Source: Promethearchaeota archaeon (GTDB lineage Archaea; Asgardarchaeota; Lokiarchaeia; Sigynarchaeales; SOKP01). From it: a stretch of DNA of 10,010 bases. The notes under the pieces were generated by a model. It made no database searches. It was not told where the DNA came from and was given only the letters and a program-made list of their open reading frames with translations. Location of the stretch: assembly GCA_030605085.1 (NCBI GenBank), contig JAUWBH010000201.1:1-10010 (forward strand), given 5' to 3'. Each line of letters starts with the position of its first letter. Within the stretch, counting starts at the first letter, position 1. This document shows positions 612 through 8,890 of this stretch, piece after piece. Made by a program: the position numbers and the translations under genes.

Positions 612-2555
612 TTAGAGAAACTCTTCCCATTGGCAAGGACGATTGTGCTTATTCAAAAAATCTTTAATCGTGTGTAGCAGAGTTTCTGGCTCATAAATCC
701 ACACTCCAAGTTTATTGAAAGATGCACATAACAATTCATTAACACTGAGATTTCTTTTTATAATCAACCCATATAGACCTACTTGTGGAATTGAGTTTAT
801 AAAAGATTTTCTAAGAGTATTTAAAGATAAAATAGGTGTTTCATTAGGCTTATAATCAATCACAAATACAGAATTTTTAATAATTTTAATCAAATCGACA
901 TGACCAGTTAAGTATAAATTTTTATGCTTTTCCCAGATGGGGATTTCACCACCAATGCTATTAGAATCCTTCTCCATTTGTAGAGACAACACATAATCAT
1001 GTCCAGCACTCCCATGAGCATAGGGTTTTTTTGTTGTTGGATTAACAAACGCTTTTTGACCATATCGTTCTCTGATAACGCTATTTTTAGATAGTTCTAT
1101 TAAATAACAAACGGACATATGTATGTTGCAATTTTCAAAAATTACCTTAATTTTTCCAGTATCAATAAGATTTTTAGTAAAATCATATTTTATTTTTTTT
1201 GGGTCTATATTTTTTAGTGTATTACCGAACTTTGATATTCTTGGAAAATTGACATAATTATCCATAATATAATCTGGAAAGCCTAAATTTTTTTGTACTA
1301 ATCTTAAATGATTTAAAAATATCGGAAAGTTTTTTGCTTTTTGTAAATTTCCTATTATAGGGGTATCCCTCCAATATTCATTTGGATATATAGGTGGTCT
1401 CTTAAGTCCAGCTATATTTCGGATATCTTTGAAATTTATTTTATGATAATATATAGCATCATAAAATTTTTGAAATTCGTTATTAATCAAAGAAGTAGGA
1501 GGCGCATAACCATCTTTGATTCCATATTCCTTCTTGAATTTATTCGACATTACATTTTCTAAGAGAAATCTTGTTGCGTTTTTAACTGCCATTTCATAGG
1601 TTCTTGGATTACCCATTTTACTCCAAGCAAAATCGCTCCAACTCTTATACTTATTTACTATAACTAACCCAGACATGTTAACGACATCATCATAATTAAT
1701 TTTTTTGTTATAAATTGCAAGATAAAAATTTTGATGTTCGTGATTATTGTATTCTTTTATCCAGCGAATACGAGGCGCATCTCCCACTTTTAGATTGAAA
1801 AAATCCTTAAATTTATCCGTCATCACATTATTCAGTAAATAGTCTGATGCATTTTTAACCGCATCTCCATAGGTTCTTGGAATACTCATTTTGCTCCAAG
1901 TAAAATCACTCCAATCCTTATATTTATTTACGACAACTAACCCAGCCATGTTAATGGCATCATCATAATTTATTTTTTTATTAAAGATTGCGCGATAGAA
2001 ATTTCGATGTTGTCCCGAATTATATTTATATATCCATTGAGAATTAGGCGCTTCTCCCTCGCTTAAATTAAAGAATTTCTTGAATTTATCCGTCATCACA
2101 TTATTCAGTAAATAGTCTGATACATTTTTAACCGCGGCTCCGTAGGTTCTTGGGATACCCATTTTGCTCCAATCAAAATCGCTCCAATCCCCATGTCTAT
2201 TTACAACAATTAACCCAGCTGCGTAAACGATATCATTATAATTCATTTTCCTATTATAAATTGCAAGATAAAAATCTTGGTGTTCATGATTATTATATTC
2301 TTTCATCCAACTACCACAAGGTGCTTCTCCATCTTTTAAATCAAAGGTTTTCTTTAATTTATCCGTTATAACATTATTCAGTAAATAAACTGATGCATTT
2401 TTGACCGCTTCTTCGTAAGTTCTTGGGACACCCGTTTTGTTCCAATTCATGAAACCCCATTTTGAATTCGAATAATTTGCGAGTACTTTATAACGATAAG
2501 TCCGATTATTTCGGCAGAAAATCTTTCTTGATGGGCAAAAAAACAATCCGTTCAT
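612..2555 (-). CDS. Four 91-residue repeats fused to a RecB/Cas4-type PD-(D/E)XK nuclease
   Basis: 647 residues. Residues 38-384 hold four tandem repeats at exactly 91-residue spacing (Trp38, Trp129, Trp220, Trp311). Each starts W-x-K followed by PRTY, then AVKNAS-x-YLLNNV, a G-x-AP turn, FY-x-AI, and an AGL-type end. After a linker, the C-terminus carries the motif order of RecB/Cas4-family nucleases: G515-x3-H519, E537, GHVD with Asp554, IDYK with Asp567 and Lys569, and Q591-x3-Y595. These are the expected metal-binding and catalytic positions, so DNA cleavage is the likely activity. The repeats resemble in layout the short helical repeats attached to homing endonucleases, so they may bind DNA (inference). 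The start is supported by a TATA-like box 28 bases upstream; a later Met36 would still keep all repeats. The gene stands alone, with 375 bases before it and a long gap after. Confidence 0.85.
   Translation of the reverse strand: MNGLFFCPSRKIFCRNNRTYRYKVLANYSNSKWGFMNWNKTGVPRTYEEAVKNASVYLLNNVITDKLKKTFDLKDGEAPCGSWMKEYNNHEHQDFYLAIYNRKMNYNDIVYAAGLIVVNRHGDWSDFDWSKMGIPRTYGAAVKNVSDYLLNNVMTDKFKKFFNLSEGEAPNSQWIYKYNSGQHRNFYRAIFNKKINYDDAINMAGLVVVNKYKDWSDFTWSKMSIPRTYGDAVKNASDYLLNNVMTDKFKDFFNLKVGDAPRIRWIKEYNNHEHQNFYLAIYNKKINYDDVVNMSGLVIVNKYKSWSDFAWSKMGNPRTYEMAVKNATRFLLENVMSNKFKKEYGIKDGYAPPTSLINNEFQKFYDAIYYHKINFKDIRNIAGLKRPPIYPNEYWRDTPIIGNLQKAKNFPIFLNHLRLVQKNLGFPDYIMDNYVNFPRISKFGNTLKNIDPKKIKYDFTKNLIDTGKIKVIFENCNIHMSVCYLIELSKNSVIRERYGQKAFVNPTTKKPYAHGSAGHDYVLSLQMEKDSNSIGGEIPIWEKHKNLYLTGHVDLIKIIKNSVFVIDYKPNETPILSLNTLRKSFINSIPQVGLYGLIIKRNLSVNELLCASFNKLGVWIYEPETLLHTIKDFLNKHNRPCQWEEFL
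1404..2444 (-). repeat. Four in-gene 273-bp tandem repeats (91-residue units)
   Basis: Units at 2444-2172, 2171-1899, 1898-1626 and 1625-1404 encode the repeats of the nuclease protein. The period is exactly 273 bases. Units 2 and 3 are closest, sharing for example YLLNNVMTDKFK and the KINYDD block. Unit 4 is the most diverged and has lost four codons in the YNNHEHQ region before FYDAI. The regularity points to expansion by tandem duplication with later drift. Confidence 0.9.
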
Positions 2556-3155: not shown

Positions 3156-3165
3156 CTTTGATAAT

Positions 3166-3182
3166 TATTTTAAATTTTAAAA
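3166..3182. promoter_or_regulatory. Near-palindromic TATA box shared by two diverging genes
   Basis: TTTTAAATTTTAAAA (3168-3182) is almost the same on both strands. Its centre is about 26 bases from the plus-strand ATG at 3200 and about 28 bases from the minus-strand ATG at 3146. One box could therefore serve either direction, and simultaneous use would be sterically excluded. Confidence 0.35.
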
Positions 3183-3199
3183 AATATATTAAAGATATC

Positions 3200-3763
3200 A
3201 TGCAAAATATTCAAGCAAAAAAAGAAAGCTTAATGCGTATATTAGGGATGGTTTTAATCCTTTTTGGTCTACTCATTACCCTTATTCTTGACTATATTTT
3301 CGTAATGGCAAATCTTACATTGTATCTATTGATTCTCTTAATTATAATTCCTTGGTTTTTATTGATTATCTTGTTGAAGCTGGAAAAAGATTTTGTTGTT
3401 GATAATGTTATAATATTTTTTATTATCCTCTGTGTGTATACGATTATAATTATATTCGTAGCATTTTCGCTAAGTCCTAATGAATCTACTTCATTATTAT
3501 TTATTATGTTGGTGATTTCTGATATTTTGCTATTGATTTGCTGGCATTTCGCATTTTCTATTTATAAGAAGGAGAAATTAATTTTTCTCTTATGCGGCAT
3601 CGGATATCTCATTATAAGCGCAATATTTAGAGTTTGGCCACCCGTATTTAATTTAATATGGATTATCAAACTTGTTCCATCAGGGCTCGTTCTTCTTGGA
3701 ATAGTCTCAATATTATTTGCAGAGTTGAGAATGAAAAAAAAAGGCTTACTGAATTATATATAA
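3200..3763 (+). CDS. Six-helix membrane protein, unknown family (copy 1)
   Basis: 187 residues from the ATG at 3200. An in-frame TTG at 3158 would add 14 residues but is less likely given the TATA spacing. There are six hydrophobic segments near residues 13-35, 39-60, 69-90, 98-119, 126-145 and 151-175. The loops are short, and the basic tail ELRMKKKGLLNYI is probably cytoplasmic. No catalytic or transport motif is recognised. A close relative lies at 8432-8890 and shares IPWF, a LLKLE block, KLIF..GGIGY-like spacing and the tail ELRMKKKGLL, so this is a lineage-specific small membrane family. The stop is followed by a T-rich tract. Confidence 0.75.
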   Translation: MQNIQAKKESLMRILGMVLILFGLLITLILDYIFVMANLTLYLLILLIIIPWFLLIILLKLEKDFVVDNVIIFFIILCVYTIIIIFVAFSLSPNESTSLLFIMLVISDILLLICWHFAFSIYKKEKLIFLLCGIGYLIISAIFRVWPPVFNLIWIIKLVPSGLVLLGIVSILFAELRMKKKGLLNYI

Positions 3764-3958: not shown

Positions 3959-5119
3959 TTAATAAAGACCTAAAGCATCAATAAAAAAAAAATAAGTAGT
4001 CATCATTTTATTTAATTCATCAATATTCATTACTAAATCAAGAACATCACCCACTCTTGGAATATAAATTGTTCTTTTATCTTCAGAGATCTTTATTTTA
4101 TCAGGAATTTCATGAGCTTCTATCCGTCGAAAGACATTGAACTTAGTATAGATTTTCGATAAAAAATCAGCTAATTTTTGATATCTTTTCCTTAATTTCA
4201 ATCTTAAAAAATCTTTTAAGAGAGTTCTAGTTCTTGAATTAAAAGGTCTAGGCGAAATTAAAAAATAACAATCTTTCTTTTTTTTATAATCCCTATTATT
4301 TTCTGTTAGAATATGATAGAGTCGGCTTAGAAACTTAGTAAATTGGATATTAAATGAATCAATATCTTTCAAAAGTCTCAATCCTTCATAAATCATTGGT
4401 AAAGAACCATGTTTCAGAGCATCTAAAAAAAAAACAGACATGTTACAATATTTCTCAGCGAAATTCGTATCTTCAAATTTTTCATGTTCTTCATATATAT
4501 TTTCAGAGCTAATTTCTATTAGGGGGTCATCTTTAGAAATGGTAGCTCTTACATTTTTTACAATTGCATCAATTCCATTTGTAATAATTGACTTTAAATC
4601 TTCTTTAATATCCGTAATATTTGATTCTATATTACTTTTTAATTGAAGGATATCTTTTTTAGTATAATTAGTTGGAAATAGATCGTTCTGTTCTTTAAAT
4701 TCTTTCATTTGACTATATAAATAATGTAATAAGGAATTTTTATGAAAAAGTATCATATTTGGACTTATTGTCTTTTCAAAATAGTTTTTCATTGAATCTT
4801 CAATTTCTTCTTGGTAAAGTAAAGGATTCTTCTTTTTAACTTGATCAATGAAATCATAATATTCTTCGACAACATCTTTCATCCCATCTAAAACAATTTC
4901 TTTTGTAAAATCGTGCATACCAAATAGTCTAAAAATTTCTTTTAAGCCAGAATAGTCTTCGTTCCACCATAACAATACTCCACTCCTATATTTTATCAGA
5001 TCCAAAATGAATAGAATAAGATCATCTACTATTGTATCTTTTTTTGCTGCTAATAATTCTATTAATTCAAATATAAGTTCAATTTTCTCTTTTTCATTGT
5101 TATTTGATGGATTGTCCAT
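3959..5119 (-). CDS. Unknown 386-residue helical protein, possible C-terminal HEPN-like domain
   Basis: No family is recognised with confidence. The protein is almost wholly helical and soluble. It has an acidic N-terminus, a Trp-containing segment (SGVLLWWNEDYSGL, 46-59), a likely coiled coil at about 155-195 (KKDILQLKSNIESNITDIKE), and a very basic helix at 300-315 (LKDFLRLKLRKRYQKL). Near the C-terminus FRRIEAHE contains Arg331-x4-His336, followed by a short strand pair and a final helix from about residue 366 (DELNKMMTTYFFF). This order (helix, R-x4-H, small hairpin, del-helix) matches what is known of HEPN ribonuclease domains in abortive-infection proteins, but it rests on one short motif and is an inference. 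A TATA-like CATATAAAG box lies at 5161-5169. Downstream on the same strand is the remnant at 3803-3937. Confidence 0.8.
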   Translation of the reverse strand: MDNPSNNNEKEKIELIFELIELLAAKKDTIVDDLILFILDLIKYRSGVLLWWNEDYSGLKEIFRLFGMHDFTKEIVLDGMKDVVEEYYDFIDQVKKKNPLLYQEEIEDSMKNYFEKTISPNMILFHKNSLLHYLYSQMKEFKEQNDLFPTNYTKKDILQLKSNIESNITDIKEDLKSIITNGIDAIVKNVRATISKDDPLIEISSENIYEEHEKFEDTNFAEKYCNMSVFFLDALKHGSLPMIYEGLRLLKDIDSFNIQFTKFLSRLYHILTENNRDYKKKKDCYFLISPRPFNSRTRTLLKDFLRLKLRKRYQKLADFLSKIYTKFNVFRRIEAHEIPDKIKISEDKRTIYIPRVGDVLDLVMNIDELNKMMTTYFFFIDALGLY

Positions 5120-5294: not shown

Positions 5295-5549
5295 TAAAAA
5301 TATTTCAATGATCAAACCACCTGCACATGTCGCCAAACCATCACGACCCGATAGCAGGTCTTGGGCTACATTGTCCTCGAGGCTTCATAGATCCATTTTT
5401 TCTCTATAGCCCCATTCAACAAACTTTTTCATAGCAATCTCAGTATATTTAATAAAATACTACTCCATACTTCAGAAAAGGGAAATAGTGAAGACAAAGT
5501 GCAAAAAATAATCTATTAATTCTTTAGGTATTTTGACGCTCTCTTCCAT
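5295..5549 (-). pseudogene. Decayed reading frame with three in-frame stops
   Basis: From the ATG at 5549 one frame reads MEESVKIPKELIDYFLHF and on to SLF, then TGA (5474-5472), SME, TAG (5462-5460), YFIKYTEIAMKKF and VEWGYREKMDL, then TGA (5387-5385), then SLEDNVAQDLLSGRDG and LATCAGGLIIE, ending at a TAG at 5294-5292. The pieces keep one frame over about 85 codons and look like protein, with few improbable residue runs. The patch at 5310-5390 is clearly richer in G+C than its flanks. The family is not recognised. The same bases can form a nested helix (5319-5324 with 5354-5359; 5329-5332 with 5344-5347), so a non-coding RNA is an alternative. Confidence 0.38.
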
Positions 5550-5792: not shown

Positions 5793-8030
5793 TTATCTCA
5801 TTTTAATCTTTAGAATTTGAATGTTCCTTTTAAAAGTTTTTGCGTTAGGAGAGTCACTTAATCCAAGCTGTGATAGAATTTGTAACGCTTCCTCGTACCT
5901 TTTTAGCGCTTCGTCATAGTCCCCTCGTGCGTCATATATCGTACCGATGTTATTAAGACGAATGGCATTCCCCGATAAATTACCCAACTGTTCGTCAATT
6001 TTTAACGCTTCTTCGTACAGTATCAACGCCTTCGCATAGTTCTCTTGCATTTTATAAATCATCCCAATGTTATTAAGGTGAGTGGCTTTCGCCGGCAAGT
6101 TTCCTAATTGCTCGTCAATCTTTAACGCTTCTTTGAAATGTTTTAACGCTTCTATATAGTTCCCTTGTGTTTTATAATTCATCCCGATGTTATTAAGATG
6201 AGTGGCTTTCCCCGACAAATCACCCAACTGCTCGTCAATCTTTAACGCTCCTTTGAACAGTTTTAACGCCTCCGCATAGTTCCCTTGCGCATTATGAATT
6301 AATCCAATGTTGATAAGATCTCTAGCTTTCGCCGGCAAGTTTCCTAATTGCTCGTCAATCTTTAACGCTCCTTTGAACAGTTTTAACGCTTCCACATACT
6401 CCCCTTGTGTTTTATAAATCGTCCCAATATTATTAAGATGAGCGGATTTCCCTGACAAATCTCCTAATTGTTCTGAAATCTTTAACGCTCCTTTGAACAG
6501 TTTTAACGCCTCCGCATAGTTCCCTTGCGCATTATGAATTAATCCAATGCTGTTAAGACGGATTGCTTTCCCAGATAGATCTCCTAATTGCTCGGCAATC
6601 TTTAACGCTCCTTCAAACTGTTTTAAAGCTTCCACATACTTCCCTTGCATCTCATATATCAATCCAATGTTATTAAGATAAGTAGCTTTCGACGATAAAT
6701 TTCCCAATTGCTCAGAAATCTGTAATGCTTTTTTATATAGTTTCAACGCCTTCGCATAGTTCCCTTGCATTTTATAAATCGCCCCAATGTTATTAAGACG
6801 AGTGGCTTTCCCAGACAAATTACCCAACTGTTCGTCAATCTTTAATGCTTCTTTGAAATGTTTTAACGCTTCAGCATAATTCCCTTTCGTACTATAAATC
6901 AATCCATTGTTGCTAAGATAAGCAGCTTTCCAAGATTGATCCCCTAATTCTTCAGCAATGGGAATTATTCTTTCTCCACATCTCATTGCATCCTCATATA
7001 TATCAAAATCGAAATAAATTTTATAAGGAATTTGATATTTCACTATTTCGTGTGGAGTTTTAACATTATGCTTGAGCCAAGCCATTGGGCTCGTTGAAAA
7101 ATTATCCAGACTTATTTTTGGCTCGGTATCTAATATTTCTTCGATCAACCTTGTTGTGTTTGCGTCCACTCGGTAAACAGGGATTGCGTTATTCATTCGT
7201 TGAATATCCACTAGTATTTGATTAATTTTTTCCAATTTATTGGTTGCATTTATATCAATTTCGTAAATTTGTTCTTTACCACCGTCGTTGCTTACAAAGT
7301 TAATCCAAACGAGATTTCGAAGGTTTTTCAAAACCTTTAAAGTAGGGACGATGTCAAAATCGTCCATACCAGAATAGCCCATTACAATCAACGAGCGATC
7401 ATTTGAGATATTATCAAACAATGTGCGTTTAAAAGGCTCTACTTGAAAGACATTCAATCCTTTTTTGTTTAAACCAAGTGCTTGCATAGTTGCAACTAAC
7501 CATCTTCTTGTATTTTCTCCCGTAATTATATTTTTAGTCGAGCCATGGATCTTGTATACTGCTTTTTTTCCTTGCTTAAATAATTCGTTTGGATTTTTGT
7601 ATTTTTCAAAATCGTCCTTAGTAATGACTGGAACAACCATGTCTTTAGGGACATTTGATTGAAGGAGAGCGTATTCTATTAAGAAATCAAAGTTCGTAGT
7701 CATTACAAAATGCCCCTTTTTAATCATTTCTGCTAAGAAAAAATGTTGAATGTTCGGTTTGTCGGACTGACCGTAATAGTCGATGATTTTAAGCTCTCTG
7801 TCTAAGCGGTCTCGAACGATTTCGACTAATCCTTCAAAACGGAGTTGTTCTAAGTCCAAGATCTTTTCGATTTCCGATTCGGCACAGGTATATTTAATAA
7901 TTGCTTCCATCATAGAGCGTCCAGCAGGTAAGCAGGAGGGAGCGTCAACAGAACATCCTGCGCCCACTAAAAAGGTCAATTTTGCGTTATCTGTTAAAAA
8001 ATCTTTTATCGTAAGGTTTGTAGATTTCAT
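5793..8030 (-). CDS. SIR2-like NADase domain fused to nine TPR repeats
   Basis: 745 residues. Residues 1 to about 300 form a SIR2 Rossmann domain: LVGAGCS (G23-A24-G25, NAD+ phosphate loop), TTNFD with Asn113 and Asp115, KIHGS with His162, and VMGYSGMDD (217-224). Asn and His at these places are the NAD+-cleaving pair of antiviral SIR2 effectors such as ThsA. No zinc-binding cysteine set of true deacetylases is visible, which favours an NADase. A linker (300-360) leads to nine tandem 40-residue TPRs (361-720) with the core LNNIG.IY..QGNY.EALK, of the kinesin-light-chain-like type, ending in a short basic tail. TPRs probably sense a partner or trigger and control the SIR2 domain (inference from known SIR2-TPR defence proteins). 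The gene is alone on its strand, and the ATG lies about 28 bases after an ATTTATAAAT box. Confidence 0.93.
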   Translation of the reverse strand: MKSTNLTIKDFLTDNAKLTFLVGAGCSVDAPSCLPAGRSMMEAIIKYTCAESEIEKILDLEQLRFEGLVEIVRDRLDRELKIIDYYGQSDKPNIQHFFLAEMIKKGHFVMTTNFDFLIEYALLQSNVPKDMVVPVITKDDFEKYKNPNELFKQGKKAVYKIHGSTKNIITGENTRRWLVATMQALGLNKKGLNVFQVEPFKRTLFDNISNDRSLIVMGYSGMDDFDIVPTLKVLKNLRNLVWINFVSNDGGKEQIYEIDINATNKLEKINQILVDIQRMNNAIPVYRVDANTTRLIEEILDTEPKISLDNFSTSPMAWLKHNVKTPHEIVKYQIPYKIYFDFDIYEDAMRCGERIIPIAEELGDQSWKAAYLSNNGLIYSTKGNYAEALKHFKEALKIDEQLGNLSGKATRLNNIGAIYKMQGNYAKALKLYKKALQISEQLGNLSSKATYLNNIGLIYEMQGKYVEALKQFEGALKIAEQLGDLSGKAIRLNSIGLIHNAQGNYAEALKLFKGALKISEQLGDLSGKSAHLNNIGTIYKTQGEYVEALKLFKGALKIDEQLGNLPAKARDLINIGLIHNAQGNYAEALKLFKGALKIDEQLGDLSGKATHLNNIGMNYKTQGNYIEALKHFKEALKIDEQLGNLPAKATHLNNIGMIYKMQENYAKALILYEEALKIDEQLGNLSGNAIRLNNIGTIYDARGDYDEALKRYEEALQILSQLGLSDSPNAKTFKRNIQILKIKMR
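5871..6950 (-). repeat. Nine 120-bp in-gene TPR repeats
   Basis: Exact 120-base periodicity over 1080 bases, with no indels. G+C is near 40 percent, well above the flanking DNA. Blocks 240 bases apart are more alike than neighbours: 6237-6309 and 6477-6549 are identical over 73 bases, and 6085-6129 and 6325-6369 over 45. A recent two-repeat duplication or gene conversion is implied. Confidence 0.92.
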
Positions 8031-8433: not shown

Positions 8434-8890
8434 AAATTTAATCTCATTATACGTATTCATTCTATTGATTTTCATTCCGTGGTTTGTCATTATAGTATTA
8501 CTAAAACTGGAAATAAATTTTCTCGTTGATAAAATGTCAATTATTCTGATACTTTTAGCGATATATTCGATTATAATCATTATAGTAGGAAACATATTTA
8601 GCACCAGCATATCAGCAACTTTAATTTTCGTAACAACAGCTATTTCTGAGATATTGATTATTCTATGTTGGCAATTTGCGATTTCTATTTACAAAAAGAA
8701 GAAACTAATCTTTATAATAGGGGGTATAGGATATTGTCTCTTAACCCTAATTTATCGACTATCACAATTAATGGCTCAAGTATTCTGGCTCATAAGTTTA
8801 GTGCCATTGGCAGCAATAATATTCGGAATGTTTTTAATAATATTCGCGGAGTTAAGGATGAAGAAAAAAGGCCTTCTACACTGGGTGTAA
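8432..8890 (+). pseudogene. N-terminally truncated copy 2 of the six-helix membrane protein
   Basis: The open frame from 8432 reads LNLISLYVFILLIFIPWF and continues to a TAA at 8890. It aligns with the intact copy at 3200-3763 from about residue 37 to the end, through the LLKLE, FAISIYKKKKLIF and ELRMKKKGLLHWV blocks. The first transmembrane helix and start codon are missing and a TGA directly precedes (8429-8431). An in-frame TTG at 8465 could start a 141-residue protein, so a shortened product is not excluded. The body has no internal stops, so the truncation may be recent. A hairpin plus T-run terminator follows. Confidence 0.65.

Follow-up and report, generated by a model that had tools for sequence, protein, structure and literature searches.

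A predicted RecB-type nuclease joined to four tandem modules in a single gene of a Promethearchaeota archaeon

As a rule, nucleases of the RecB type depend on a partner, be it a helicase, Cas proteins or another. The question raised by one gene in a 10,010-nucleotide stretch of a Promethearchaeota archaeon contig (JAUWBH010000201.1, assembly GCA_030605085.1; this whole stretch is referred to as the window) is how such a nuclease might be directed when it shares a single protein with a tandem array of large repeats. In the list of open reading frames of the window, the gene is a 647-amino acid (aa) frame running from 2555 to 612 on the minus strand; a plus-strand reading of 612..2555 was ruled out, as its frame 1 is full of stops. 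Residues 33-392 form four tandem units, which are followed by a linker and, from about residue 431 to 647, by a nuclease domain. The best explanation, to which a probability of roughly 0.55 is given, is that the product is a stand-alone, divalent-metal-dependent DNA nuclease, as predicted here, tethered to nucleic-acid-binding modules. Together with its relatives it constitutes a small new protein family, in which the nuclease type is known and for whose tandem module the searches gave no known match.

The nuclease domain

The first-pass annotation had assigned the C-terminus to the RecB/Cas4-type nucleases from an ordered H, E, D, DxK and QxxxY motif set. Each residue that it named is in place and invariant in all eight aligned members of the family, the Asp and Lys positions included. 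The full order of catalytic motifs of RecB/MGME1-type PD-(D/E)XK nucleases (MGME1, mitochondrial genome maintenance exonuclease 1), namely Ia (H), I (E), II (D), III (DxK) and IV (QhxxY) as defined in the relevant part of PMC6237815, is likewise present in 8/8. A loose pattern of the form H..E..D..DxK..QhxxY matches the C-terminal 260 residues, with His479 as its leftmost start and His519 also fitting; shuffling produced it in 14 cases out of 20000 for this region and in 59 out of 20000 for the full-length sequence.

The predicted structure does contain a PD-(D/E)XK alpha/beta core fold, the absence of which had been named as a possible objection. Residues ~431-647 resemble the Cas4, RecB, AddAB, MGME1 and Exo5 nucleases, and most VIA-align rows begin at 426-436 and finish at 621-647. 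At the level of profiles, five of the eight members match Pfam PDDEXK_1 at an expectation value (E) of 0.1 or below, and at least two pass its curated cut-off of 22 bits (P0002 at 25.9 and P0003 at 24.4); P0005 falls below it at 16.3, and P0004 has no match. The assignment to the RecB type thus stands by motif order, conservation, these weak but repeated profile matches and the predicted fold, whereas membership of Cas4 in the strict sense was ruled out. Cas4 is said to be defined by four conserved iron-sulphur (Fe-S) cysteines (in the portion of PMC5704561 that treats it), and these are absent; in the C-terminal region one Cys column (610) is invariant and two more Cys occur in 6/8 and 4/8 members. 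Sequence and structural model together give good support for a C-terminal PD-(D/E)XK nuclease of the RecB/MGME1 type that lacks an Fe-S cluster, its activity being predicted. In a two-metal nuclease of this kind, His519, Asp554 and Asp567 would bind the metals with support from Glu537, Lys569 would position the attacking water, and Gln591 and Tyr595 would hold the substrate.

The window protein matches two NCBIfam families (E 0.0019 and 0.0045), in both cases well short of the cut-off, and neither PADLOC nor PHROGs returned a family for it; a PHROGs exonuclease family weakly matches four of the eight members (best E 0.0066), too weakly to be trusted alone. A sequence search of the PDB with the window protein gave no matches, and the family profile reached an unconvincing E of 0.29 at best against PDB sequences. 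The window protein bears a precomputed database label, PF26675.1, an accession absent from the Pfam release and from the open-access literature searched; P0002 does not share this label and bears PF12705.

The repeat array and its family

The array had been described as four 91-residue repeats. There are indeed four tandem units, of which the first three are exactly 91 residues long and the fourth is shorter by 4, at about 87. When the N-terminal 387 residues are compared with themselves at an offset of 91, 152 of 296 positions agree; 1000 shuffles gave 18.3 on average and at most 34. Pairwise identity between units is 47-74% in protein and 62-81% in DNA, where comparisons involving unit 4 cover only its first 53 codons. 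Across the 31 repeats of the eight proteins, unit positions Arg13, Pro47 and Phe63 are invariant, and Tyr15, Ala18, Asn21, Ala46 and Ala66 nearly so. Repeat 3, predicted alone, gives a compact five-helix domain with a predicted local distance difference test score (pLDDT) of 87.5: a small fold, predicted well, for which the PDB structure searches made here gave nothing convincing. A Pfam search with the 31 repeats yielded no convincing family, and the repeat profile gave an unconvincing best E of 0.36 against PDB sequences. As far as these searches reach, the module is undescribed. Elsewhere in the window, a 33-residue open stretch between genes (5410-5508, plus strand) scores 11.1 bits to the end of the repeat profile, against top scores of 2.5-9.0 in 20 shuffles; the match may be due to chance, or the stretch may be what is left of a repeat.

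The pairing of repeats and nuclease in one stand-alone gene, an architecture that the first-pass annotation had singled out, is not confined to the window. Among 5.8 billion proteins, at least seven relatives were found, and all eight members share the design, for which no description was found in the open-access literature searched. The protein searches were word-limited, with 7994, 740 and 5184 candidates scored, and the second and third searches missed P0003, so the family may exceed eight. Scans of genome contigs, viral contigs, and phage and plasmid collections, which rely on short exact patterns, confirmed no relative; one genome-contig scan used patterns from only three members and was ill suited to the P0004-P0008 branch. 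The C-terminal nuclease domain is the same in all members, and the number of repeats is four in seven of them and three in P0002. P0008 has an additional N-terminal stretch (residues ~13-42) that contains a CxC and a CxxC pair and, on visual inspection, resembles a zinc ribbon.

A tree of the 31 repeats separates two histories. In P0004-P0008, each repeat position forms its own clade (support 0.992-0.997), and the array is therefore old and fixed. In the branch of the window protein, the last repeats (P0001_r4 of the window protein, P0002_r3 and P0003_r4) group together with a support of 0.962, and the upstream repeats cluster by protein (P0001 r1-r3, 0.807; P0002 r1-r2, 0.967), which indicates that the latter were multiplied or homogenised separately. 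As read from this tree, the upstream repeats of the branch have multiplied lineage by lineage and the nuclease-proximal repeat has stayed put. Synonymous sites between units 1-3 are unsaturated (synonymous difference, pS, 0.31-0.40), and in P0001-P0003 the arm is 39-46% identical, against 53-66% for the nuclease. The module adjoining the nuclease would then be the old, fixed one, and tandem duplication would account for the gain, loss and divergence of the outer modules, a pattern that fits an arm serving recognition.

What the repeats may bind

In the mechanism proposed here, three or four compact, mostly basic five-helix modules would bind nucleic acid and bring the nuclease to its substrate. 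Catalytic activity and any site preference are what we infer, and three observations together hint at DNA as the ligand of the repeats: basic N-terminal regions in 7/8 members, the pairing with a DNase-type domain, and the turnover of the repeats.

A number of results weigh against this explanation. The window protein itself scores 21.5 bits against PDDEXK_1, 0.5 bit short of the cut-off, three of the eight members have no match to that profile at E≤0.1, and the best Foldseek matches of the predicted structure all fall short of E 0.001. The full-length prediction is modest (pLDDT 70.4, predicted template modelling score 0.40), with several nuclease blocks at 48-60. P0002 has a neutral repeat arm, with an isoelectric point (pI) of 7.1, the repeats of the window protein taken one by one carry net charges of 0, +4, +3 and +6, and other proteins of the window are also basic (a SIR2-like protein with tetratricopeptide repeats (TPR) at pI 8.6, and membrane proteins at 9.2-9.7; a 386-aa protein is at 5.8), so the basicity of the arm is weak evidence. 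The ratio of nonsynonymous to synonymous change (dN/dS) is 0.35-0.76 over all unit pairs, which denotes purifying and no clear diversifying selection, and in P0004-P0008 arm (66-88%) and nuclease (73-88%) evolve at a similar pace.

The principal rival retains the nuclease as described and takes the repeats to be protein-protein adaptors that dock it to a partner in replication, repair or defence, with no choice of sequence. Small all-helical modules often act as adaptors, and the absence of a convincing PDB match for the module fold and the neutral arm of P0002 agree with such a role. RecB-type nucleases, moreover, usually depend on a partner for direction, according to section 8 of PMC5704561. 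The basic arm of 7/8 members speaks against docking, as does the fact that no conserved partner gene was seen, the genes next to the relatives not being accessible. Docking is doubtful on balance and still the strongest competitor of a nucleic-acid-binding arm.

The proposal of a nucleic-acid-binding arm can also be carried further, to a natural single-protein site-directed nuclease. Five-helix modules of a new class would read DNA, be multiplied and re-tuned by tandem duplication and aim the attached nuclease, of MGME1/RecB type, at chosen sequences, and the module next to the nuclease would serve as a fixed adaptor; in this specific form the proposal would be unlikely.

A homing-type or other selfish nuclease, whose repeats would read a long target site and whose gene would spread by cutting empty alleles, is improbable. 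Free-standing homing genes exist, and the family is very rare. Homing endonucleases such as I-Bth0305I also combine a nuclease domain with a long, modular region that binds DNA (in the part of PMC3943268 describing them). However, a search of the window with Rfam gave no family at gathering cut-offs and hence no sign of a self-splicing intron, the 19 families that Pfam lists for the 31 repeats (E≤10) include no NUMOD/IENR-type module, the motif set is RecB-like and not EDxHD, and the phage, plasmid and viral-contig scans produced no relative. Least credible is that the repeats bind RNA, as a guide or structured transcript, and that the nuclease cuts the bound RNA or a DNA to which it points: the modules are compact, basic and helical, and 4/31 repeats weakly match, below threshold, the helicase PWI domain (best E 0.00097), a fold that binds nucleic acid, but the Rfam search gave no family in the window and, to our knowledge, DNA is the substrate of RecB-type nucleases that carry these motifs.

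The locus and comparison with known systems

Table 1. Features of the repeat-nuclease gene, in window coordinates; bit scores of repeats come from a profile built on the repeats themselves.
Feature	Position	Strand	Remarks
Whole gene	612..2555	-	647 aa, ATG start, TAA stop
Repeat 1, residues 33-123	2187..2459	-	117.1 bits
Repeat 2, residues 124-214	1914..2186	-	113.5 bits; 74% identical to repeat 3
Repeat 3, residues 215-305	1641..1913	-	113.5 bits; unit folded alone
Repeat 4, residues 306-392 (~87 residues)	1380..1640	-	107.4 bits; adjoins nuclease, position conserved
Linker and helical region, residues 393-430	1266..1379	-	predicted structure, confidence partly low
Predicted nuclease domain, residues ~431-647	615..1265	-	Pfam PDDEXK_1 at 537-602 (below cut-off) and structural alignment
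His519 (motif Ia)	999..1001	-	invariant 8/8
Glu537 (motif I)	945..947	-	invariant 8/8
Asp554 (motif II)	894..896	-	invariant 8/8
Asp567-Tyr568-Lys569 (motif III, DxK)	849..857	-	8/8
Gln591-Val592-Gly-Leu-Tyr595 (motif IV, QhxxY)	771..785	-	Q, V, Y in 8/8
TATA-like TTTAAA	2581..2586	-	-31 from the ATG

No Shine-Dalgarno-like word lies in the last 25 bases before the ATG of the repeat-nuclease gene, nor does one precede any of the four ATG-start minus-strand genes of the window, three of which have TTTAAA or TTTATA 22-38 bases upstream. Three genes with such boxes were reached in 7 of 5000 shuffles, for a pattern picked after looking. This combination of archaeal-type TATA-like boxes without Shine-Dalgarno-like words suggests archaeal leaderless transcripts.

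Elsewhere in the window, a 745-aa protein (5793-8030, minus strand) starts with a SIR2-like domain (SIR2_2, 37.8 bits, cut-off 24.5) and also has a long TPR array, a composition that recalls defence proteins; its matches in plasmid records lie mostly in the TPR array. The acidic 386-aa protein (3959-5119, minus strand) could be placed convincingly in none of the Pfam, NCBIfam, PADLOC or PHROG families, and neither the phage collection nor one viral-contig scan gave a match to it. Two hydrophobic proteins on the plus strand (3158-3763 and 8465-8890), without Pfam match, share the ending LRMKKKGLL and are probably membrane proteins and duplicates of each other.

Should the proposed mechanism be true, a RecB-type nuclease would be directed in a new way, by an array of an undescribed module within the same single protein, and the turnover of the repeats makes target choice by module number testable. 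Among known nucleases, MGME1 is without tandem repeats, belongs to another context and is ~13% identical in the structural alignment. The nuclease domains of RecB, AddA, AddB and AdnAB are fused to superfamily 1 (SF1) helicases, unlike the window protein, in which no helicase domain is found: no SF1 helicase family is listed for it at E≤1 or among the 8 Pfam families listed for the 8 members (E≤0.1), where the sole helicase-named match is the sub-threshold PWI. The Cas4-like nucleases of pfam12705 are similarly described with helicase fusions and not repeat fusions in section 8 of PMC5704561. TAL effectors and TALE nucleases embody a similar idea, a tandem-repeat reader with a nuclease, but their repeats are helical hairpins of 33-35 residues with two reading residues, and the unit of the present family has 87-91 residues and five helices. 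The closest functional analogy is offered by the I-Bth0305I/NUMOD homing endonucleases, in which, from what PMC3943268 relates of them, a nuclease is tethered to several small DNA-binding modules; these proteins have another nuclease motif set, and the window protein instead carries tandem copies of one 87-91-residue module.
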